DNA from: Paraurantiacibacter namhicola
Lineage (GTDB): Bacteria > Pseudomonadota > Alphaproteobacteria > Sphingomonadales > Sphingomonadaceae
Length of the DNA: 64,000 nucleotides
NCBI RefSeq assembly: GCF_001687545.1
Contig: NZ_CP016545.1
Span: 496,001 to 560,000, forward strand
Direction of reading: 5' to 3'
In this document: in pieces, positions 5,628 to 14,200 of the stretch
Numbering within the stretch: the first letter of the stretch is position 1
How the letters are laid out: every line of letters begins with the position of its first letter
The notes under the pieces: generated by a model
Told to the model about the DNA's origin: nothing
Seen by the model: only the letters and a program-made list of their open reading frames with translations
Database searches by the model: none
Translations under genes and position numbers: made by a program

Positions 5628-7214
5628 TCAATGGGTAATCGCGGCCCAATCCAGTTCGAACCTGGCGAGGTATTTGCGCAGGCGGTCGGAATCGTTCGTG
5701 GACTTTCGCTGCTCGCGTGAGGCGGCGAACAGGGTGCGTCCTGCCTCCGAGAGGCTGATTGACTGGCGGCAAACCTGCACGACGAAATCCAGCTGGACCC
5801 GATCGAAGGGATCGATGGACCCGAGGCGGTCAGCACCGATTATCCCGACAAGCCTGTCTTCACCTGCGCTGCCCCCTGACCAGAGCCGTGCAAGGCGGCC
5901 GGTTTCGAAATCCACGGCCTCGCGGTCGATCCTGCCGGTGGGGCACAGTGTCGCCATACGGGTTACGCTGGCGGCGAGGTCGCGGAAATTGCCTTGCCAG
6001 CGGGCGGACGAACTCTCGGCAAAGGCGAGAAAGCGGTCCCGGGCCTCCTTGTTGAATGTAACGCGTGTGCCTTCACGTTCGGCAAAGCGTTCAAGCTCGT
6101 AGTCCAAATTGGGTTCGATATCCTCGCGCCGCTCGGCGAGCCCGGGCAATGCAAAGGTCCAGAGGTTGAGCCGTGCGAACAGGTCTTCGCGGAAATTCCC
6201 GGCTGCGACTTCGTCAATCAGGTTGCGGTTGGTCCCGGCGATCAGCTGGAACTCGCTTTTCGCCTCGCTATCTGCGCCAACCGGAAGGAAGCGCCCCTCC
6301 TCGATCGCGCGCAGGATCATCGCCTGCTCGTCAAGCCCCAGTTCGCCAATCTCGTCTAGGAACAGGAGGCCCTTGTCGGCGCCCTTGAGCAGGCCGGGCC
6401 GGTCCTGCACTGCACCGGTGAAGGCACCTTTCTTGTGGCCGAACAGCGCGGACATTGCGCTGTCGCCCTTCAGCGTCGCACAGTTGACCTCCACGAATGG
6501 CCCTTCGACCTGGTGGCGCAGTTTCTTGAGCTCATAGACCTTGCGCGCGAGCTGGCTCTTGCCGGCACCGGTCGGGCCCATCAGCAGGATCGGCGCGCGG
6601 CTGCGCACAGCGACCTGTTCGATCTCCTCGATCATGCGGTTGAAGGCCGCGTTGCGGGTTTCGATCCCGCTCTTGAGAAAGCTGGTGCTTTCCGCGCTCG
6701 CTTCGGCAAAGCGGCTAGCGATGGAATCGTAGCGGGAAAGGTCGAGATCGATCGAGGCCCAGGTGCCTATCGGCTGCGGCCCTCCCTTGTGCGGCTGTGT
6801 TTGGAGCAGTTTTCCCGGAAGATAGCGCGCCTCGGTCAGCAGGAAGAGGCAGATTTGCGCCACATGGGTGCCGGTGGTGATGTGGATCAGGTAATCTTGC
6901 GTGTCCGGATCAAAATCGAACTCACGCGCGAAATCGAGCAGCTTTCCATAAACCTCCTCGAAGTCCCATGCGTCTTCAAAATCCATGACGTGGGGGACGA
7001 CCTCGGTCTCGGGTGAAACGTCGCGGATATCCTGCATTACGAATTCGGCGAGGCGGCGGTGATAGCTGCCGTGGATCAACACAAACCGATCCACCCGCAG
7101 GTCCTCCTGCATGCAGATGCTGACCGTGGGCCGCCACTTGTTCCAGCGTGACGGACCAAACTTCGCGGCATCGAGTGTCGAGCCAAGAAAACCGATGACA
7201 GTGGTGGACTTCAT
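5628..7214 (-). CDS. rtcR: RtcR, sigma-54-dependent activator of RNA repair genes
   Basis: This 528-residue protein begins with a CARF-type ligand-sensing domain (about 1-185; TTVIGFLG at the start, HITTGTHVAQICLFLL near 112-127). An AAA+ sigma-54 activation domain follows with Walker A GPTGAGKS (213-220), the sigma-54 contact loop GAFTGA (263-268) and Walker B LLFLDE (283-288). A C-terminal helix-turn-helix region completes it. RtcR homologues switch on rtcBA after RNA damage. The gene is divergent from rsr, and a sigma-54 promoter for rsr lies in the shared intergenic region, so it most probably controls the whole rsr-rtcA run. Confidence 0.95.
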   Translation of the reverse strand: MKSTTVIGFLGSTLDAAKFGPSRWNKWRPTVSICMQEDLRVDRFVLIHGSYHRRLAEFVMQDIRDVSPETEVVPHVMDFEDAWDFEEVYGKLLDFAREFDFDPDTQDYLIHITTGTHVAQICLFLLTEARYLPGKLLQTQPHKGGPQPIGTWASIDLDLSRYDSIASRFAEASAESTSFLKSGIETRNAAFNRMIEEIEQVAVRSRAPILLMGPTGAGKSQLARKVYELKKLRHQVEGPFVEVNCATLKGDSAMSALFGHKKGAFTGAVQDRPGLLKGADKGLLFLDEIGELGLDEQAMILRAIEEGRFLPVGADSEAKSEFQLIAGTNRNLIDEVAAGNFREDLFARLNLWTFALPGLAERREDIEPNLDYELERFAEREGTRVTFNKEARDRFLAFAESSSARWQGNFRDLAASVTRMATLCPTGRIDREAVDFETGRLARLWSGGSAGEDRLVGIIGADRLGSIDPFDRVQLDFVVQVCRQSISLSEAGRTLFAASREQRKSTNDSDRLRKYLARFELDWAAITH

Positions 7215-7358: not shown

Positions 7359-7374
7359 TGGCACGCCTCATGCT
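7359..7374 (+). promoter_or_regulatory. Sigma-54 (-24/-12) promoter of the rsr-rtcBA operon
   Basis: TGGCACGCCTCATGCT has GG and GC separated by exactly ten bases, matching the RpoN consensus TGGCAC-N5-TTGCW with one change. The predicted transcription start is near 7385, giving a leader of about 98 bases before rsr. The divergent neighbour encodes a sigma-54 activator, which strongly supports the assignment. Confidence 0.85.
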
Positions 7375-7482: not shown

Positions 7483-9042
7483 ATGGCCAACAAGACGCTT
7501 TTTTCCTCGGCACTCTCTTCCTTTGGGGCGAAGTTCCTGCCGCGCAAGGACACGGTGAACGAGGCAGGCGGCAGCGCCTATGCCTATGGCCCCGAAGCCC
7601 TGCTCGCGCAGCTAGCCGCAACCGGCACGTTGTCGGACGGTTTCTACGCCGATGCGCAGGACCAGCTTGCCAAGGCGCTCGAAGCGGCCTGGGCGGTGGA
7701 CGCCGCATGGGTCGCCAAGTGCGCGATCTATGCTCGCCAGTCGGGCGCGATGAAGGACATGCCGGCATTGCTCACTGCAGTGCTGTCGATGTCCGATCCG
7801 GACCTGATGGTCCCGGTGTTCAAGCGCGTGATCGATAACGGGCGCATGCTGCGCAACTTCGTGCAGATCATGCGTTCGGGCCAGATCGGGCGGACTTCGC
7901 TCGGCTCGCGTCCGAAGCGGCTGGTGCGTGTATGGTTGGAAAATGCCTCGACCCGCCAGCTGATGCAGGCGGCGACGGGCAATGATCCGAGCCTGGCGGA
8001 TATCGTGAAGATGGTTCATCCGGCTCCGGCTTCGGCCGAGCGGCGTGCCTTCTACGGCTGGCTGATTGGCAAGCCCTACGATGTCGCCGCGTTGCCGAAG
8101 GAGATTGCCGATTTCGAAGCATGGAAGGCGGAGCCCTCGCGGCCCCTGCCCGATGTGCCCTTCGAGTGGCTGACCGCCTTCGATCTCGCGGCAAAGCAGT
8201 GGGCTGTGCTGGCAGAACGCATCGGGTGGCAGGCGTTGCGGATGAACCTGAACACGCTGGCGCGTAAGGGAGTGTTCCAGATCGACGGAGTGACCGAGAT
8301 GGTTGCTGCCCGGCTGGCCGATCCCGATGCCATCGCCCGCGTGAGGCCGATGCCCTACCAGTTGATGACGGCGCTAACGCAGGTCGGGGATGGTGTTCCG
8401 CTGGCCGTGCAGGCTGCGCTCGAGAAGGCCCTGGACCTGTCGCTTGCGAAGGTCCCGGTGCTGGAAGGCAATGTCGTGGTGTGTCCGGACGTGTCGGGCT
8501 CGATGGGCTCGCCCGCGACCGGTTACCGCAGGGGTGCGACTTCGGTCGTGCGCTGCATCGATATCGCCGCGCTGGTTTCGGCCGCGATGCTGCGGAGCAA
8601 TCCGCAGACCCGCGTGCTGCCGTTCGCGGTGGACGTGGTGAAGCTCAAGCTCGATCCCAAGGCCCGCGTGGCGGTGAATGCCGCCAAGCTGGCAGGGGTC
8701 GGCGGCGGCGGAACCAATGTCTCGGCCCCGCTTGCCTTGCTGAATCGCGAGAAGGCAAAGGTCGATTGCGTCGTGATCGTTTCGGACAACGAATCCTGGG
8801 TCGACCCTGCCCGCTACGGAGCCACGGCGACGATGAACGAATGGACCAGGCTGAAGGCCCGCAACCCGGGCGCGAAGCTGATCTGCATCGACATCCAGCC
8901 CTATGGCTCGACGCAGGCCAAGGACCGCAAGGACATCATGAATGTCGGTGGTTTCACCGACGCGGTGTTCGGCGCGATGGCGCGCTTCGCCAGTAACGAG
9001 GCGCGCGACTGGGTCGAGATCGTGAACGAAGTAGAATTGTAA
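7483..9042 (+). CDS. rsr: Rsr: Ro60/TROVE-domain RNA-binding protein
   Basis: This 519-residue protein consists of a TROVE HEAT-repeat ring (about 20-320; e.g. AAWVAKCAIYARQSGAMKDMPALLTAVL) followed by a von Willebrand A-like domain. The MIDAS motif D336-x-S338-x-S340 reads PDVSGSMGSP. Bacterial Ro60 orthologues (Rsr) bind Y RNAs and, in Deinococcus, link them to the exonuclease PNPase for structured-RNA decay. GGAG lies seven bases before the ATG. The gene follows a sigma-54 promoter and is followed at once by four Y-RNA-like genes and rtcB, the arrangement described for Salmonella rsr-yrl-rtcBA. Confidence 0.95.
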   Translation: MANKTLFSSALSSFGAKFLPRKDTVNEAGGSAYAYGPEALLAQLAATGTLSDGFYADAQDQLAKALEAAWAVDAAWVAKCAIYARQSGAMKDMPALLTAVLSMSDPDLMVPVFKRVIDNGRMLRNFVQIMRSGQIGRTSLGSRPKRLVRVWLENASTRQLMQAATGNDPSLADIVKMVHPAPASAERRAFYGWLIGKPYDVAALPKEIADFEAWKAEPSRPLPDVPFEWLTAFDLAAKQWAVLAERIGWQALRMNLNTLARKGVFQIDGVTEMVAARLADPDAIARVRPMPYQLMTALTQVGDGVPLAVQAALEKALDLSLAKVPVLEGNVVVCPDVSGSMGSPATGYRRGATSVVRCIDIAALVSAAMLRSNPQTRVLPFAVDVVKLKLDPKARVAVNAAKLAGVGGGGTNVSAPLALLNREKAKVDCVVIVSDNESWVDPARYGATATMNEWTRLKARNPGAKLICIDIQPYGSTQAKDRKDIMNVGGFTDAVFGAMARFASNEARDWVEIVNEVEL

Positions 9043-9053
9043 GAAAGGAGCAC

Positions 9054-9152
9054 AAAGGTCGCGGCGAATGCCGGGAAGGACTACATCCTGTCACGATGGT
9101 GGTCTCTGAAAAGGGGCACCTGTCTTTCCCAAGCCTCGTCGCCGCGACCTTT
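9054..9152 (+). ncRNA. Y-RNA-like unit 1 (minimal, no tRNA-like arm)
   Basis: The ends pair perfectly over 14 bases (AAAGGTCGCGGCGA with TCGCCGCGACCTTT). Inside is the shared 5' block ATGCCGG..GGACTACATC and a second stem, GGGAAGGAC/GTCTTTCCC, with one G-U pair. ATGCC opposite AAGCC-TCG forms the internal loop between stems. The apical part of about 40 bases can form GGTG/CACC but has no T-loop. This long stem, conserved bulge and shorter stem is the architecture of Ro-binding Y RNAs. It starts 12 bases after the rsr stop codon. Confidence 0.8.
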
Positions 9153-9164
9153 GCATAGATTGAT

Positions 9165-9341
9165 TTTGGAAAGGGCCGGGGCAAATGCCGGTGGGACTAC
9201 ATCTCCGACATGAAAGGCCCGACGAGTAAAGCGCCCCATGGGAGCAATCCTGCGGGGAGATGCGGGTTCGAATCCCGCCGCTGGAACGTAGCTTAAGGGC
9301 CGATTGTCTCACCAACACTCGTTGCCCCGGCCTTTTCCAAA
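9165..9341 (+). ncRNA. Y-RNA-like unit 2 (long insert with T arm)
   Basis: The terminal stem is 20 bp (9165-9184 with 9322-9341, one G-U). The conserved ATGCCGG-(T)GGGACTACATC block follows, and the second stem GGTGGGAC/GTCTCACC keeps its pairing through changes relative to unit 1. The 177-base unit carries a perfect T arm, GCGGG-TTCGAAT-CCCGC (9262-9278), and GGCCC/GGGCC pairing around the insert. A partial GTAGCTTA D-arm remnant follows the T arm. The tRNA-like elements are again in permuted order but less complete than in unit 3. Confidence 0.8.
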
Positions 9342-9480
9342 TTCACGGCGAATGCCGGAAGGACTACATCGACTTGTAATCGCCAGGTCGCGGGTTCGAA
9401 TCCCGCCAGGTCCACCAATTATGGGCCTGTAGCTCAGCGGATAGAGCAGGAACGTCTTTCCAGAACCTCGTCGCCGTGAA
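9342..9480 (+). ncRNA. Y-RNA-like unit 3 with complete circularly permuted tRNA mimic
   Basis: The terminal stem is TTCACGGCGA/TCGCCGTGAA and the second stem GGAAGGAC/GTCTTTCC. Between them lie, in order: a CTTGTAA loop closed by CGA/TCG (anticodon-arm-like), the T arm GCGGG-TTCGAAT-CCCGC (9390-9406), acceptor 3' strand CAGGTCC plus ACCA (9407-9417), a five-base loop, acceptor 5' strand GGGCCTG (9423-9429), TA, and the D arm GCTC-AGCGGATA-GAGC (9432-9447). The acceptor strands pair over seven positions with one G-U. The Y stem therefore replaces the anticodon-arm attachment, as expected for YrlA-type tRNA mimics. Confidence 0.88.
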
Positions 9481-9494
9481 CCTGAATACAAATC

Positions 9495-9594
9495 GCTGGC
9501 GAATGCCGGTCGGGACTACATCGGTAACCAGGCGGTTCGAACCCGCCCCTGCATGGCAACATGCGGAGAAGTCTCGCCAAAACTCGTCGCCAGC
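9495..9594 (+). ncRNA. Y-RNA-like unit 4 (T arm plus capped stem, no D arm)
   Basis: The terminal stem is GCTGGCGA/TCGCCAGC. The conserved GAATGCCGG..GGGACTACATC block follows, and the second stem GG(T)CGGGAC/GTCTCGCC has one bulged T and one G-U. The insert has a T arm GGCGG-TTCGAAC-CCGCC. It also has an acceptor-like stem, CC(T)GCATG/CATGCGG, capped by a GCAA tetraloop, with the D arm absent. The unit ends 29 bases before the rtcB start, so it must be processed from, or sit in, the leader of rtcB. Confidence 0.8.
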
Positions 9595-9623: not shown

Positions 9624-10850
9624 ATGACCCAGACGACGTATGAATATCAGGACGTGGAAGGCGGGTCGCCGATCAAGATGTGGACCCGCGGCGTTCCCGT
9701 TGACGACAAGGCGCGGGAGCAGCTGACCAAGGCGGCGAAGATGCCGTTCATCTTCAAGCATGTTGCGGCCATGCCCGACGTGCATGTCGGGATCGGCGCG
9801 ACCGTGGGCTCGGTGATCCCGACCAAGGGCGCGGTAATCCCGGCGGCTGTGGGCGTGGACATCGGCTGCGGCATGATGGCGGCGCGGACCTCGCTGATGG
9901 CGAGCGACCTGCCGGACAATCTTGCCGGCATCCGCTCGGCAATCGAAGCCGCCGTACCGCATGGCCGGACAGCCGGCCGCGGCAAGCGCGACAAGGGTTC
10001 GTGGGGCGATCCGCCCCCGGCCGTGGTCGACGCCTGGGTGAAGCTCGCCGAGCGGTTCGGGCGGATCGTCGCCAAGTACCCGCGGCTCAAGAACACGAAC
10101 AACCTCGTGCATCTGGGGACACTGGGAACCGGCAACCACTTCATCGAGCTGTGCCTCGATACCGAGCAGCGGGTGTGGGTCATGCTCCACTCGGGCTCGC
10201 GCGGGGTGGGCAATGCCATCGGCACGTTCTTCATCGAACTGGCCAAGCAGGACATGCGCAAGTGGCATATCAACCTGCCTGACCAGGACCTCGCCTATTT
10301 CCCCGAAGGGACCGATCATTTCGACGATTATGTCGAAGCCGTCGAATGGGCGCAGGACTTTGCGGCGCTCAACCGGCGCGTGATGATGACGCATGTGCTC
10401 GATGCGCTGCGAGGCCAGATCGCCAAGCCTTTCGAGGCGGACTGCGAAGCGGTGAACTGCCATCACAACTATGTGACGCGGGAAAACCACTTCGGCGAAA
10501 ACGTGCTCGTCACCCGGAAGGGTGCGGTGCGGGCGGCGAAGGGTACGATGGGCATCATCCCCGGATCGATGGGGGCGAAGAGCTTCATCGTGCGCGGGCT
10601 GGGCAATGCCGAGAGCTTCGACAGCTGCTCGCACGGCGCGGGGCGCGTAATGTCCCGGACCCAGGCGAAGAAGCTGGTGACGCTCGACGAGCATGTTGCC
10701 GATACCGCCGGTGTCGAATGCCGCAAGGACGAGGGCGTGATCGATGAAACGCCCAAGGCCTACAAGCCGATCGAAGCCGTGATGGCCGCGCAGGCCGATC
10801 TGGTGGAGATCGTCCATACCTTGAAACAGGTGGTGTGCGTGAAGGGTTAG
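9624..10850 (+). CDS. rtcB: RtcB, RNA-splicing ligase (3'-phosphate/5'-OH)
   Basis: This 408-residue protein equals the usual length. Metal and catalytic residues are in place: D79 and C82 in GVDIGCGM, H172 in GTGNHF, H189 in HSGSRG, H281 in NCHHNY, and the guanylylated histidine H337 in SCSHGAGR, the same number as in E. coli. It joins 2',3'-cyclic phosphate or 3'-phosphate RNA ends to 5'-OH ends using GTP and Mn2+. The ATG at 9624 was chosen because GGAGG lies six to ten bases upstream; 21 earlier in-frame codons read through Y-RNA unit 4 and are rejected. Confidence 0.96.
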   Translation: MTQTTYEYQDVEGGSPIKMWTRGVPVDDKAREQLTKAAKMPFIFKHVAAMPDVHVGIGATVGSVIPTKGAVIPAAVGVDIGCGMMAARTSLMASDLPDNLAGIRSAIEAAVPHGRTAGRGKRDKGSWGDPPPAVVDAWVKLAERFGRIVAKYPRLKNTNNLVHLGTLGTGNHFIELCLDTEQRVWVMLHSGSRGVGNAIGTFFIELAKQDMRKWHINLPDQDLAYFPEGTDHFDDYVEAVEWAQDFAALNRRVMMTHVLDALRGQIAKPFEADCEAVNCHHNYVTRENHFGENVLVTRKGAVRAAKGTMGIIPGSMGAKSFIVRGLGNAESFDSCSHGAGRVMSRTQAKKLVTLDEHVADTAGVECRKDEGVIDETPKAYKPIEAVMAAQADLVEIVHTLKQVVCVKG

Positions 10851-10880: not shown

Positions 10881-11303
10881 ATGAAAGGTAAATTTCATTG
10901 TCAGGGCTGTGACCGTGCCCTGACCGGTGAAATCACCGTTCAATCGCTAAAGGATCCGAGCGTTCAGACCGCCTGTTTGATCGATCAGCGGCCTGTCTGC
11001 GCGAAGGGAAGCGGTTTCAAATCTTACGAACCGCTCCTGCGTTCGCATGACCCGATCAGGCCGGCCGCTTTGGAATTTGTGCCGCAGTATTGGCTCAATC
11101 CAGAAGATTTCGAGGCGACGGGTAAAGTTACCCGCAAGCGTGGCCGCACAAACGGTTGTTGCGGATTGGATGGCTGCGACGGTCCCAACATCGAATGCCG
11201 AGAGTGCGGAACCGAAATTGGGACCAAGCAGTCCGATTGTTGGACGCCGCTCATATTCGTTCCAGACCCGGACAACACCGAATTCCGAAAGACTGAAACA
11301 TGA
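10881..11303 (+). CDS. Unrecognised cysteine-rich protein between rtcB and rtcA
   Basis: This 140-residue protein starts at 10881 after GGGAGGTCGCC, an SD nearly identical to that of rtcB. It has a CxxC at the N-terminus (C7, C10 in HCQGC), single cysteines near 32 and 41, then CCGLDGC and CREC clusters, which is a likely zinc-ribbon layout. It is soluble, with no signal peptide or membrane helix. I do not recognise the family. Its stop overlaps the rtcA ATG (ATGA), so it is translationally coupled to rtcA and probably acts with the RNA repair enzymes, for example in RNA or end recognition (inference). Confidence 0.8.
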   Translation: MKGKFHCQGCDRALTGEITVQSLKDPSVQTACLIDQRPVCAKGSGFKSYEPLLRSHDPIRPAALEFVPQYWLNPEDFEATGKVTRKRGRTNGCCGLDGCDGPNIECRECGTEIGTKQSDCWTPLIFVPDPDNTEFRKTET

Positions 11304-12316
11304 TCACAATTGACGGCTCCGACGGCGAAGGTGGCGGGCAGGTCTTGCGGAATTCCGCAGCCCTGTCGCTGCTGACCGGCGAGCCCTTCACCATCCAGAA
11401 CATTCGCGGTGGGCGGGCCAAGCCCGGCATGATGCGCCAGCACGTCACCTCGCTGGAGGCCGCTTGTGCCATTGGCGGGGCCGAATGCAGCGGGCTGATG
11501 GTCGGTTCTCGCGAGCTGACGTTTCGCCCGGGCCGCGTCATACCCGGAGAATACAGCTTCGCCGTCGGAACGGCGGGAAGCACGGGGCTGGTCTTGCAGG
11601 CCATCCTGGTGCCGCTGATGATGGCCGATGCGCCCTCCAGGATCATGATCGAGGGCGGCACCCATGCAATGGCTGCTCCGCCCTTCGAATTCCTTCAGAA
11701 GACGCTGCTGCCGGTTCTGGAGCGGCTGGGGCCGACACTCTCCATCACCCTCGAGCGCCATGGATTCTACCCGCGCGGCGGGGGCCGCATCGTGGTGGAC
11801 ATCGAGCCCTCGGCACTCCGTACGATCCAGTGCACGCAGCGCGGCGCCTTCCTCGGCGGGAAGGCGGAGGTGCTGCTTGCCGGTATCCCCTTCGATATTG
11901 CCGATCGCGAGTTGACGGCGGCGCGCAAGGTGCTGTCCGAATGGCCGGAAGAAGCCTTCGCGCCGGCCCTGCTGCCCGCGGATTGCGGGCCGGGCAACGC
12001 GTTGTTGCTGGAAGCCTCGTTCGAACATGTGACCGAGGTGGTGTCTGGTTTCGGGAAGCTTGGAGTTCCTGCAGAACGCCTGGCCAAGACGGCGGCAAAG
12101 CGCATGGCGGGCTACCTCGCCTCACAGGCGTTTGCCGGGCCATACCTGCAGGATCAGTTGTTACTGCCGTTTGCCATGGCTGGCGGCGGGGCTTTCACGA
12201 CCGTCAAGCTCAGCCAGCACAGCCGCACGGCGATGGCGCTGATCGAGCGGTTTACAGGACGAGGCTTCCGGGTCTCGGATACGGAGGATGGGGCACATCA
12301 GATAGAGGTGTGCTGA
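11300..12316 (+). CDS. rtcA: RtcA, RNA 3'-terminal phosphate cyclase
   Basis: This 338-residue protein begins MITIDGSDGEGGGQVLRNSAAL, the family's N-terminal signature. It has the RGGRAKPGMM block and ends with VKLSQHSRTAMALIERFTG, which contains the adenylylated histidine (H307). RtcA converts RNA 3'-phosphates to 2',3'-cyclic phosphates through an AMP intermediate, giving ends that RtcB can use. The length is normal. The start overlaps the preceding cysteine-rich ORF by four bases. Confidence 0.96.
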   Translation: MITIDGSDGEGGGQVLRNSAALSLLTGEPFTIQNIRGGRAKPGMMRQHVTSLEAACAIGGAECSGLMVGSRELTFRPGRVIPGEYSFAVGTAGSTGLVLQAILVPLMMADAPSRIMIEGGTHAMAAPPFEFLQKTLLPVLERLGPTLSITLERHGFYPRGGGRIVVDIEPSALRTIQCTQRGAFLGGKAEVLLAGIPFDIADRELTAARKVLSEWPEEAFAPALLPADCGPGNALLLEASFEHVTEVVSGFGKLGVPAERLAKTAAKRMAGYLASQAFAGPYLQDQLLLPFAMAGGGAFTTVKLSQHSRTAMALIERFTGRGFRVSDTEDGAHQIEVC

Positions 12317-12417
12317 TCGGCGCTGCCTAACCTCGCGCGTGTGTCCCATCCCGCCCGGCGCTTGGAACTGTTTCGGGCAATGCGTATATAGTGCCGATTA
12401 CTGGATTGGAGGGCGCC

Positions 12418-13347
12418 ATGGCTGATGACCGGAATTTGCAGATTGCCGCGCAGCAGGTCCGGCAGGCGCTGTCTGACAAGGGCCAGCGCCCATCCATCGC
12501 GGGGTTCTTCGACGAGGCGACCAACACGGTTTCCTATGTCGTGCACGATCCGGCCAGCGGCGAGGCGGCCATCATCGATTCCGTGCTGGATTTCGAGGCC
12601 GCGTCCGGGCGCACGTCGAATGGATCTGCCGACCGGATCGTTGAATATGTCACCTCGAACGACCTGCAGGTCGCCTGGCTGATCGAGACCCATGCCCATG
12701 CCGATCACATCTCGGCCGCGCCCTATTTGCAGGAAAAGCTGGGCGGGAAGCTGGCCATCGGGCGCGGGATCATCCGCGTGCAGGAGGTCTTCGGGAAGCT
12801 GTTCAACGCGGGCACCGATTTCGAGCGCGACGGGTCGCAGTTCGACCGGCTTTTCGATGACGGGGACCGGTTCCACATCGGCGAAATCGAGGCCACCGCG
12901 CTGCATGTGCCCGGCCACACGCCGGCCGACATGGCCTTCATCATCGGCGATGCAGCGTTTATCGGCGATACGATGTTCATGCCGGATTTCGGCACTGCGC
13001 GGGCGGATTTCCCGGGCGGCGATGCGGGCCAGCTCTTCCGCTCGATCCGGCGGCTTCTGGAACTGCCCGAGGAAACGCGCCTGTTCCTGTGCCACGATTA
13101 CAAGGCGCCGGGCCGCGACGAATATGCCTGGGAGACGAGTGTCGGCCAGCAACGCGCCCACAATGTCCATGTCAGGGATGGCGTGAGCGAGGAGGAATTT
13201 GTCGAAATGCGCACGACCCGCGACCGCAAGCTGGCGATGCCGGCCCTGATCATGCCGTCCGTCCAGGTGAATATCCGCGGCGGCCGCCTGCCGGAGCCGG
13301 AGGATAATGGCGTGAGCTACATCAAGATCCCGGTGAACGCGGTATGA
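12418..13347 (+). CDS. MBL-fold hydrolase, persulfide dioxygenase / Blh-like
   Basis: This 309-residue cytoplasmic protein has the metallo-beta-lactamase motif H92-A-H94-A-D96-H97 (THAHADH), a later histidine in HVPGHTPAD, the bridging Asp in IGDTMF and a terminal His in CHDYK. It resembles Blh/ETHE1-like persulfide dioxygenases, which oxidise glutathione persulfide with non-heme iron. The start ATG at 12418 has GGAGGG upstream. It overlaps the following YeeE/YedE gene by four bases. The pairing recalls BigR-regulated sulfide detoxification operons, but no bigR-like repressor is adjacent. Confidence 0.85.
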
Positions 13348-13790
13348 TGCTGCCGGGCTTTCCCGACGCCGCCCCGCTCGACGGGCTGGCGGGCGGCGTG
13401 CTGATCGGCCTGGCCGCAGCGGTCATGCTGCTGGGACTGGGGCGGATCGCCGGCGTGTCTGGCATCGCGGCAAAGGCTGCAGGCCTTGGCGGCAGCGGAA
13501 TGGCGCGCGGTTCGGCGTGGATGTTCTTCATCGGCCTGCCGCTGGGCGCGCTGGCCGTGATGCTTGCCTCTGGCGGGCTGGAAGCGCGCTTTGCAAGCCC
13601 GCTCGTCCTGGCGATCGCGGGCCTGCTGGTGGGCGTGGGAACGCGGCTGGGAAGCGGTTGCACAAGTGGCCACGGCGTATGCGGGATGAGCCGCCTGTCG
13701 GGCCGCTCGATCGTGGCCACCGTGACCTTTATGGCCGCAGGGATTGCCACGGTGGCGATCATGAATGCCCTGGGCTGGGAGGTGCTGTGA
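13344..13790 (+). CDS. YeeE/YedE-family sulfur transport protein, half 1
   Basis: This 148-residue membrane protein has four predicted helices and the conserved cysteine segment [24 protein letters not shown], typical of the YeeE/YedE (DUF395) fold. Relatives import thiosulfate or related sulfur compounds using membrane cysteines. It is one half of a split transporter whose second half follows directly (overlap at 13790). Start and stop overlaps with both neighbours indicate one operon. Confidence 0.85.
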
Positions 13791-14200
13791 TGCGCGCGAA
13801 TGTGACATCGCTCGTCTCGGGCACGCTGTTCGGCGCCGGCCTTGCGCTGGGCGGCATGACCAATCCCGCACGCGTGCGCGGCTTCCTGGACTTATTCGGC
13901 AATTGGGACCCCACGCTTGCCTTCGTCATGGGCGGCGCGCTGGTGGTGATGGCGATAGCCTGGCAAATCGTCCCGCGCATGGCGCGCCCGGTGATGGCGG
14001 AAACCTTCCAGCTGCCATCGAAATCGGACCTGACCCCGCGCCTGATCGGCGGGGCTGCGCTGTTCGGCGTGGGCTGGGGTGTGGCGGGCCTGTGCCCCGG
14101 GCCGGGCATTGCGGCACTGGTGATAGAGCCGGTGTCTGCCGCGATCTTCGTCGTGGCCATGCTGGCAGGCATGGCTCTGGTCCGGCTGACCGAAGGCTGA
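13790..14200 (+). CDS. YeeE/YedE-family sulfur transport protein, half 2 (DUF6691-like)
   Basis: This 136-residue membrane protein begins [34 protein letters not shown], with conserved GLALGGM and the later GVGWGVAGLCPGPGIAAL cysteine segment. The two motifs mirror those of the preceding protein, so the pair likely assembles into one pseudo-symmetric channel. The ATG overlaps the previous stop (TGATG). Confidence 0.85.
   Translation: MRANVTSLVSGTLFGAGLALGGMTNPARVRGFLDLFGNWDPTLAFVMGGALVVMAIAWQIVPRMARPVMAETFQLPSKSDLTPRLIGGAALFGVGWGVAGLCPGPGIAALVIEPVSAAIFVVAMLAGMALVRLTEG

Follow-up and report, generated by a model that had tools for sequence, protein, structure and literature searches.

Four predicted Rsr-type Y RNAs with tRNA parts in changed order in an RNA repair operon of Paraurantiacibacter namhicola

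We report that the gap between rsr and rtcB in Paraurantiacibacter namhicola (contig NZ_CP016545.1, positions 496,001 to 560,000; this 64,000-nucleotide stretch is referred to as the window and positions are numbered within it) probably holds an operon-borne set of four Rsr-associated Y RNAs that have a common Y stem and carry different tRNA-part modules (Table 1). The anatomy is the part of which we are most confident: judged from the nucleotide sequence and its relatives, the units very probably consist of the same two-part Y stem, each with a different module made mostly of tRNA parts in changed order. We also lean, with less assurance, towards regarding the units as "Rsr-tethered tRNA mimics".

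Table 1. Predicted genes, sites and RNA elements of the locus.
Feature	Position	Strand	Details
rtcR, sigma-54 activator of RNA repair operon	5628..7214	-	Pfam RtcR 3.6e-81; NCBIfam RNA_repair_RtcR 812 bits, cut-off 650
sigma-54 (-24/-12) promoter-like site preceding rsr	7359..7373	+	TGGCACGCCTCATGC; 1 mismatch vs TGGCACN5TTGC
rsr, bacterial Ro60 orthologue	7483..9042	+	phmmer to D. radiodurans Rsr 2NVO, E 2.5e-17, residues 19-506
Y RNA unit 1	9053..9153	+	outer stem 9053-9067/9139-9153; inner stem 9073-9081/9122-9130
Unit 1 anticodon-like hairpin	9084-9098	+	CATC-CTGTCAC-GATG; then second hairpin; no T-arm
Y RNA unit 2	9165..9341	+	outer stem 9165-9184/9322-9341; inner stem 9190-9197/9306-9313
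Unit 2 pseudoknot helix	9204-9207/9282-9285	+	4 bp, one wobble
Unit 2 D-loop helix	9216-9220/9297-9301	+
Unit 2 D-stem	9229-9232/9291-9294	+
Unit 2 closed hairpin	9234-9257	+
Unit 2 T-arm	9262-9278	+
Y RNA unit 3	9342..9480	+	outer stem 9342-9351/9471-9480; inner stem 9357-9364/9454-9461
Unit 3 anticodon hairpin	9370-9382	+	loop CTTGTAA 9373-9379; anticodon UGU
Unit 3 remaining anticodon stem	9383-9384/9449-9450	+
Unit 3 T-arm	9390-9406	+
Unit 3 acceptor	9407-9413/9423-9429	+	7 bp
Unit 3 ACCA	9414-9417	+
Unit 3 D-arm	9432-9447	+
Y RNA unit 4	9495..9594	+	outer stem 9495-9502/9587-9594; inner stem 9511-9516/9571-9576
Unit 4 unpaired CGGT	9522-9525	+
Unit 4 T-arm	9531-9547	+
Unit 4 GCAA-capped acceptor-like hairpin	9549-9566	+
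rtcB RNA ligase	9624..10850	+	start codon inferred (begins about 9624); Pfam RtcB 2.4e-128
rtcA RNA 3'-terminal phosphate cyclase	11300..12316	+	Pfam RTC 3.5e-72; NCBIfam RNA_3prim_cycl 355 bits, cut-off 250

The locus has every element by which we recognise an RtcR-controlled RNA repair operon (divergent rtcR, sigma-54 site, rtcB and rtcA), and the order is divergent rtcR, sigma-54-like site, rsr, the four units, rtcB, an ORF of 140 aa and rtcA. The rsr product matches Pfam vWA_Ro60 (1e-14) and scores 75 bits against the NCBIfam Rsr model, which is under that model's 900-bit cut-off. Using a looser pattern, a sigma-54-type site was found in 85 of 94 rtcR-rsr gaps (not de-duplicated and including the window's own), compared to 0.1% of the shuffles. 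A scan of the whole window allowing up to 2 mismatches gave 78 sites with 91.65 expected, i.e., chance level, and the claim for the site preceding rsr therefore rests on its position and conservation. Of 397 genomes sampled from the family, 20 yielded an Rsr, and the locus is thus patchy in its distribution. An AlphaFold2 model of Rsr predicted from the single sequence was poor (pLDDT 44.7) and we place no weight on it.

All four units have the 5' block ATGCCGG..GGACTACATC and the 3' motif CTCGTYGCC, just as the original prediction described, and each is rsr-adjacent with an outer stem, AUGC loop, inner stem and ACUAC, which is the YrlA layout. The outer stems are 15, 20, 10 and 8 bp in units 1 to 4, while the inner stems comprise 9, 8, 8 and 6 bp with one G-U in each. 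Terminal stems of 14, 20, 10 and 8 bp, all perfectly paired, had been proposed; the two shorter ones stand, the first is extended by a C-G pair (9053/9153) and the 20-bp stem has one G-U. With a strict unit rule (at least 12 of 14 pairs plus at least 3 of 5 motif letters) exactly these four units were identified on the plus strand of the whole window and none on its minus strand; of the 325 units located in 80 rsr-rtcB gaps, 320 satisfy the rule, with 0.0 per set for dinucleotide shuffles and 0 for the reverse strand. The folding energy of each unit is better than that of all 200 shuffles (z-scores of -5.85, -4.88, -3.98 and -3.22 for units 1 to 4). Moreover, a covariance model, R1, which was built from 37 sequences of another unit class and from which the window sequence was absent, ranked the units as its top four matches in the window (unit 3, 5.8e-11; unit 2, 1.9e-10; unit 4, 4.6e-10; unit 1, 2.6e-6), the fifth being a match with an E-value of 0.015 that overlaps a tRNA-Arg gene. 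The proposal of four distinct Rsr-type Y RNA units in an rtcR/rsr/rtcB/rtcA locus is borne out. Covariation in the stems had also been claimed, and in aligned relatives of all four units the stems are retained and compensatory changes are present; stem loss was looked for in the same alignments and not seen. On account of the compensatory stem changes a coding role for the array was set aside.

The Rfam YrlA model (RF02553; cut-off 69 bits), against which a check had been recommended, scored unit 3 just under the cut-off (68.5 bits) and units 4 and 2 lower (33.5 and 30.0 bits, respectively), with no score for unit 1. Hence, in the Rfam scan of the array no unit attains the gathering score, and since the curated cut-off is not reached we do not file the units as strict Rfam YrlA members; the counterparts of unit 3 in loci L012 and L014 exceed it (71.9 and 73.5 bits). 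Such units are easily overlooked at this cut-off: it reports 9 matches in 20 loci that according to our unit finder hold 88 units, a sum in which five loci were counted via a locus with an identical gap.

Our sample of rsr loci consisted of the best 80 of 83 loci found by an Rsr search plus further loci from genomes of the family; rsr and rtcB could both be placed in 90 loci (window included), corresponding to 80 distinct gaps, and all 80, the window's among them, carry an array. The number of units is 2 (6 arrays), 3 (15), 4 (30), 5 (26) or 6 (3), where the finder can err by one (unit 4 of L033 spans two units). Four units in a row had been regarded as unusual, and with 2-6 units in 80 distinct gaps four is instead the mode. 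The loci are mostly from Sphingomonadales; others are in records titled Acidobacteriia, Planctomycetota and Gemmatimonadaceae, as well as Agitococcus, Lysobacter and Paracidovorax, and beyond the family, arrays with 3 to 7 units occur in eight genomes of the class and phylum. A search of the phylum with R1 listed 221 of 398 genomes at E ≤0.001 with a rough calibration; we take the weak matches for tRNAs and chance, and used the strong ones and loci with both rsr and arrays. A small pattern check of 6 genomes matched only the window itself and has no further bearing on this.

The arrays of close relatives, L012, L030, L031 and L032 among them, are one unit longer than the window's. In L012 the additional, fifth unit is located between units 3 and 4, and the spacer 3' of unit 3 does not differ by a single letter between L012 and the window, which indicates that the window lacks exactly one unit together with its spacer. 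The missing unit was probably lost by recombination between adjacent 5' blocks. Such clean loss of one unit bears on whether the array could be a structured leader only, which controls rtcB translation or transcript stability and gives no separate RNAs. The array is located inside one operon, a promoter scan found no internal sigma-70 promoter in it and its one terminator-like site is within the shuffle range (mean 0.4, sd 0.7), all as expected for a leader. However, the units are self-contained with long closing stems, their number varies, one can be lost cleanly and in Salmonella known Y RNAs occupy the same slot (rsr-yrlBA-rtcBA), and we consider a leader extremely improbable.

The part inside the inner stem, here called the module, was searched automatically for a T-arm and a D-arm in 325 units. 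A T-arm was detected in 292 modules (126 of 1625 shuffled); the D-arm follows the T-arm in 111 modules (shuffled, 5 of 1625) and is split around it in 105 (shuffled, 10 of 1625), while 76 have a T-arm only and 33 no T-arm. These classes were set by our own rules and some D-stem picks are wrong, e.g. GCTT/AGGC, including that of the window's unit 2. Both permutation orders are present in 63 of the 80 arrays. A hairpin is located 3' of the T-arm in 219 of 232 units examined, with GNRA as the commonest single loop kind (97/232), and many acceptors end in tetraloop caps. The rearranged-tRNA nature of the modules, including the complete permuted tRNA described below, was missed by the original prediction. 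Loops of 7 nt with U33 and a purine at 37 occur in 48 of the 111 T-then-D units and in 22 of the 33 units without a T-arm; an initial idea of "elbow-only" mimics, in which no unit would have an anticodon loop, was dropped because of these loops and the evidence for complete tRNAs.

Five class alignments were generated: A1, the short D-loop-opened class (37 distinct of 40 sequences; 99.2% of the cells pair; 17 of 32 pairs changed on both sides); A2, the long D-loop-opened form (57 of 57 found by a pattern; 23 of 38 pairs); A3, complete-tRNA units (22 rows; 98.3%; 20 of 35 pairs); A4, the unit 1 type (9 loci, 8 distinct sequences, window included; 97.9%; 7 of 36 pairs); and A5, the unit 4 class (32 of 48 listed; 14 of 27 pairs). 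The rows in A3 are the 44 units introduced below minus 13 of a CATC-stem subtype, 3 with repeat insertions and 7 others (in L017, L024, L073, L088, L096, L099 and L105), with L089, the loop of which is without T33, added. The pairing percentage and the covariation score of each alignment were reached by 0 of 500 shuffles and are above all slid controls; since the sequences are related these shuffle tests overstate independence.

These data also bear on an alternative in which ordinary YrlA function accounts for everything, i.e., all units tether Rsr to PNPase and gate the decay of structured RNA, with the module differences representing drift among redundant copies. YrlA together with Rsr is known to tether PNPase (the YrlA-PNPase-Rsr assembly; PMC8394870), the stem is common to all units, and close relatives differ by one unit that is cleanly missing in the window. 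On the other hand, distinct module classes recur across genera, most arrays have both permutation orders, each class keeps its own covariation and drift poorly explains the nearly fixed U33 and A37 that flank a fast-changing triplet in the complete-tRNA units (see below), and we therefore find this alternative somewhat doubtful.

Our comparison shows that unit 3 has the predicted fold of a whole circularly permuted tRNA with its anticodon stem interrupted by the Y stem and its acceptor ends joined by a short loop. Following the inner stem it reads CGA-CTTGTAA-TCG, CC, AGGTC, T-arm, CAGGTCC-ACCA, five bases, GGGCCTG, TA, D-arm, A and GG. This GG, just before the return into the Y stem, pairs with the CC after the hairpin, so that the Y stem interrupts an anticodon stem of 5 bp at nt 28/29. 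The cloverleaf is complete (5 bp each in the anticodon and T stems, 4 bp in the D-stem and 7 bp in the acceptor) with the 3' half before the 5' half, as in a circularly permuted tRNA gene, and its order of T-arm, acceptor and D-arm is the YrlA module order.

To assess the complete-tRNA type we used 44 units, which are the 48 hairpin-bearing T-then-D units minus 4 with a 6-bp hairpin and the loop ATAATGT, and some of which are near-copies of one another. The units were chosen for T-arm, D-arm and hairpin, and only the acceptor pairing and the completion of the anticodon stem are therefore independent of the selection: after un-permuting, 7 of 7 acceptor pairs form in 42 of the 44, and in 43 of the 44 the strands on either side of the Y insertion pair to bring the anticodon stem to 5 bp (20 of 132 for shifted controls). 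ARAGORN called 43 of the 44 as tRNA when they had been un-permuted by script (shuffles, 0/880) compared to 0 of 44 modules in native order, and the anticodon that it reported is the loop triplet in 43 of 43, with 16 different anticodons overall. The energy model is less favourable. When the tRNA-like fold is imposed, the energy penalty is 2.2-7.9 kcal/mol for 21 of 22 sequences, the window being the worst of these (7.9), and 21.5 kcal/mol for the one further, misaligned row; the anticodon pairs are within the minimum-energy fold of only 2 of 22 sequences, and that of the window's unit 3 has an alternative hairpin in which GACUUG pairs with CAGGUC. As the energy model disfavours it, the support for the anticodon hairpin of unit 3 is comparative only.

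Could unit 3 be a permuted tRNA gene, with a pre-tRNA that is excised from the Y stem, closed into a circle by RtcB and processed by RNase P into a working tRNA? It resembles the permuted tRNA genes of algae and one archaeon, Thermofilum pendens, in having the 3' half first and the acceptor ends joined by a short intervening sequence (5 nt), the layout described in PMC3978253; moreover, ACCA is encoded, the un-permuted body is accepted by ARAGORN and a ligase gene is adjacent. In contrast to those genes, the ends of unit 3 lie in a long stem of the Rsr type that is set into the anticodon stem, and the CCA is often lost: a 4-nt acceptor tail ending in CCA is present in only 24 of the 44 units, many acceptors are tetraloop-capped and three orthologues carry a repeat in the cap loop (described at the end). 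At the junction, inspected by eye, the linkers are UACAU and AAC and no 4-bp helix between 3-nt bulges, i.e., no bulge-helix-bulge, was seen. The host carries its own Thr(UGU) tRNA, and a tRNA body with a swapped anticodon would be expected to mistranslate. The host tRNA nearest to the unit 3 body has the anticodon CAT (alignment score 61; lengths 76 and 77) and is not a Thr tRNA, although the anticodon of unit 3 is UGU. Taken together, a gene for a working tRNA seems highly improbable.

In the 22 aligned complete-tRNA units U33 is retained in 21 and A37 in all 22, and of the three most variable columns with few gaps two are positions 34 and 35. In the 93 pairs (not independent of one another) with an identity of 80% or more, the rate of difference is 0.51 for the triplet vs 0.146 for the other unpaired columns (3.5x); e.g. 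L076 and L102 are 95.5% identical, yet have the triplets CCA and GTA. The closest relatives of the window retain TGT. Exact identity with host tRNA loops was found for 9 of 44 distinct loops, vs 2% under a loose null, which is weak support, and many triplets match by chance in the C32/A37/A38 background, so we put no weight on single anticodon identities.

Unit 1 was likewise shown, by comparison with its relatives, to keep a predicted anticodon-like hairpin, the loop of which (CTGTCAC) is identical to that of the host tRNA-Asp. It has no T-arm and hence not the YrlA module order, nor a good Rfam match; with YrlB (RF02565), the only model to score it (17.1 bits vs a cut-off of 97), it has the Y stem in common and differs by its 7-nt anticodon-like loop. 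To our knowledge YrlB is without a T-arm. In the alignment 5 of the 15 outer stem pairs changed on both sides, whereas the anticodon-like stem is invariant across the 8 distinct sequences and thus without covariation signal, and by one of the five measures, the count of pair types, the alignment is no better than shuffles (425/500 as high).

Unit 2 does not follow the YrlA module order; its arrangement shows instead what we interpret as a tRNA body that is open within the D-loop and has a pseudoknot to lock it. A short D-loop-opened class, present in relatives and absent from the window, has the order D-arm 3' half, small hairpin, T-arm, capped acceptor and D-arm 5' half; its D-stem never varies and thus has sequence support only. 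In the longer form, of which unit 2 is a member, the start of the module pairs with a strand 3' of the T-arm and crosses the D-stem, i.e., a pseudoknot. Cognate strands of the pseudoknot helix score 10.0 vs 7.3 for swapped strands (51 distinct combinations; 0/5000 permutations), and on the MAFFT columns the helix is paired in only 60% of the cells.

Unit 4, which has the T-arm only and thus not the YrlA module order, is shown by the same kind of comparison to combine a putative T-arm and capped acceptor with a loose GG, forming what would be a minimal tRNA elbow. An unpaired GG at module nt 3-6 is present in 58 of 62 short T-only modules, compared to 40 of 111 and 5 of 33 modules from other classes, and this enrichment suggests that the GG may make the G18-G19 contact of the tRNA elbow.

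With respect to function, RtcR in Salmonella binds 5' tRNA halves with a cyclic phosphate, whereupon rsr-yrlBA-rtcBA is turned on (PMC7790460). In our preferred reading of the array as a set of Rsr-associated Y RNAs, tRNA halves with cyclic-phosphate ends would likewise wake RtcR, which would turn on the operon from the sigma-54 site; the long transcript would be cut into separate Y RNAs, and Rsr would bind their common Y stem. The modules may then dock on tRNA-handling proteins such as PNPase, modification enzymes and tRNA nucleases, and one array would thereby offer several tRNA shapes simultaneously, made while tRNAs are being cut.

Alternatively, units 1 and 3 might act as re-sealable bait, i.e., as substrates or competitive inhibitors of anticodon nucleases, with anticodons that change with the nucleases; the Y stem would hold both pieces after a cut in the loop, so that RtcB and RtcA could reseal them. 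The completeness of the tRNA body, in which U33, A37 and an anticodon stem of 5 bp are present, is consistent with this, as are the 16 different anticodons, the elevated triplet rate in close pairs and the position of the array next to rtcB and rtcA under an activator that senses cut tRNAs; PMC7790460 itself proposes that YrlA might inhibit the nuclease. Yet the same source states that YrlA fragments were not detected in Salmonella after tRNA cleavage, and according to PMC8394870 the tRNA-like domain of YrlA, which is modified by DusA and TruB, resembles the D, T and acceptor arms only. Many array units also lack an anticodon loop: of 103 D-loop-opened units, 1 has a 7-nt T33 loop in its best hairpin 3' of the D-stem, and in a loose scan of the module start a 7-nt anticodon-type loop was seen for 10 of 105, including unit 2 of the window. 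In addition, TGT is kept in very close relatives of the window and the 93 pairs are not independent, and we judge bait to be unlikely. A bolder version, which we regard as an improbable speculation from the sequences, is that Ro60 operons may hold sets of permuted tRNAs with diversifying anticodons, the unit 3 type serving as re-sealable anticodon-nuclease bait on Rsr and the D-loop-opened and minimal units as bait for elbow-binding enzymes; if true, the Y stem would keep cut halves together and the neighbouring RtcB and RtcA could mend them.

Parts of this picture are already known, namely Y RNAs, the tRNA mimicry of YrlA and its circular permutation relative to tRNA (PMC11472068, in the part covered). 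YrlA of Salmonella has the same operon slot and the same two-part stem with AUGC and ACUAC as the window units, and resembles unit 3 in the circular permutation of its T-arm, closed acceptor and D-arm; compared to the Rfam YrlA consensus unit 3 has an extra 15-nt insert, which is the anticodon stem-loop. Units 2 and 4 have other orders or pieces, and there are four units here and two in Salmonella. Permuted (two-piece) tmRNA (RF04321) has a permuted T-arm/acceptor stretch to which unit 3 is a weak match (32.6 bits; cut-off 47), while unit 3 differs in having the Y stem. The Rsr of Deinococcus radiodurans, which works with a Y RNA, is homologous to the window's; we know of no array-bearing rtcBA operon around rsr in that species.

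Relative to the literature covered, outside which the founding YrlA papers lie, three aspects are provisionally new: arrays of up to 6 or 7 units, forms that are D-loop-opened and pseudoknotted, and complete tRNA bodies in which the anticodon changes. The predicted complete permuted tRNA bodies are thereby placed in Bacteria, for which a review from 2014, in the part covered, listed no permuted tRNA (PMC4033280). Several tRNA shapes beside a ligase and a sensor of cut tRNA also open the way for direct tests of binding, cutting and mending.

Finally, a repeat is inserted in the acceptor cap loop of three unit 3 orthologues and other copies of it are present in spacers; from its position in the cap loops the capped acceptor end seems to tolerate insertion. 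Matches to the core of the repeat numbered 31, 22, 15, 15, 9 and 3 in genomes G016, G283, G401, G255, G387 and G000, with 5, 1, 5, 10, 3 and 1, respectively, for the reversed control.

The Rfam tRNA model gave weak matches inside the Y RNA arrays of four rsr loci from other genomes, and in L153 and L017 these matches straddle two adjacent units, combining the D-arm of one unit with the T-arm of the next. Annotation pipelines could report false tRNAs within Y RNA arrays. D-loop-opened modules, i.e. permuted tRNA bodies with the break in the D-loop, are also present in the arrays of L150, L151 and L155, where we read them as similar to Leu-type tRNAs (long variable arm), together with D-arms that we interpret as Pro-type.

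A REP-like repeat with the core CTCACGCAGCGAAGC(G) is present both in array spacers and in the cap loop that joins the acceptor ends of unit 3, the complete circularly permuted tRNA; it is absent from the window's own Y RNA array.

Features of the Y RNA arrays and of the rtcBA region
Feature	Locus	Coordinates	Strand	Placement
Weak Rfam tRNA match	L153	1699-1833		inside array
Weak Rfam tRNA match	L017	3292-3438		inside array
Weak Rfam tRNA match	L024	999-1127		inside array
Weak Rfam tRNA match	L156	1730-1804		inside array
REP-like repeat	L012, L027-L031, L035, L072, L089			array spacers
REP-like repeat	L031, L035, L036			unit 3 acceptor cap loop
Cysteine-rich 140-aa ORF	window	10881-11303	+	between rtcB and rtcA
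Metallo-beta-lactamase-fold gene, then ORFs	window	12391-14200	+	directly 3' of rtcA

Searches of Pfam and NCBIfam with the 140-aa ORF returned no match. Some relatives likewise carry a homologue between rtcB and rtcA (L028, 87%; L030, 86%; L031, 62%; L041, 49%), and tblastn found none in many others. Judged by eye, the ORFs following the metallo-beta-lactamase-fold gene have the appearance of small membrane proteins. Upstream of rsr, the rtcR-rsr gap contains a tRNA gene in several relatives (L019, L020, L021, L022 and L025).
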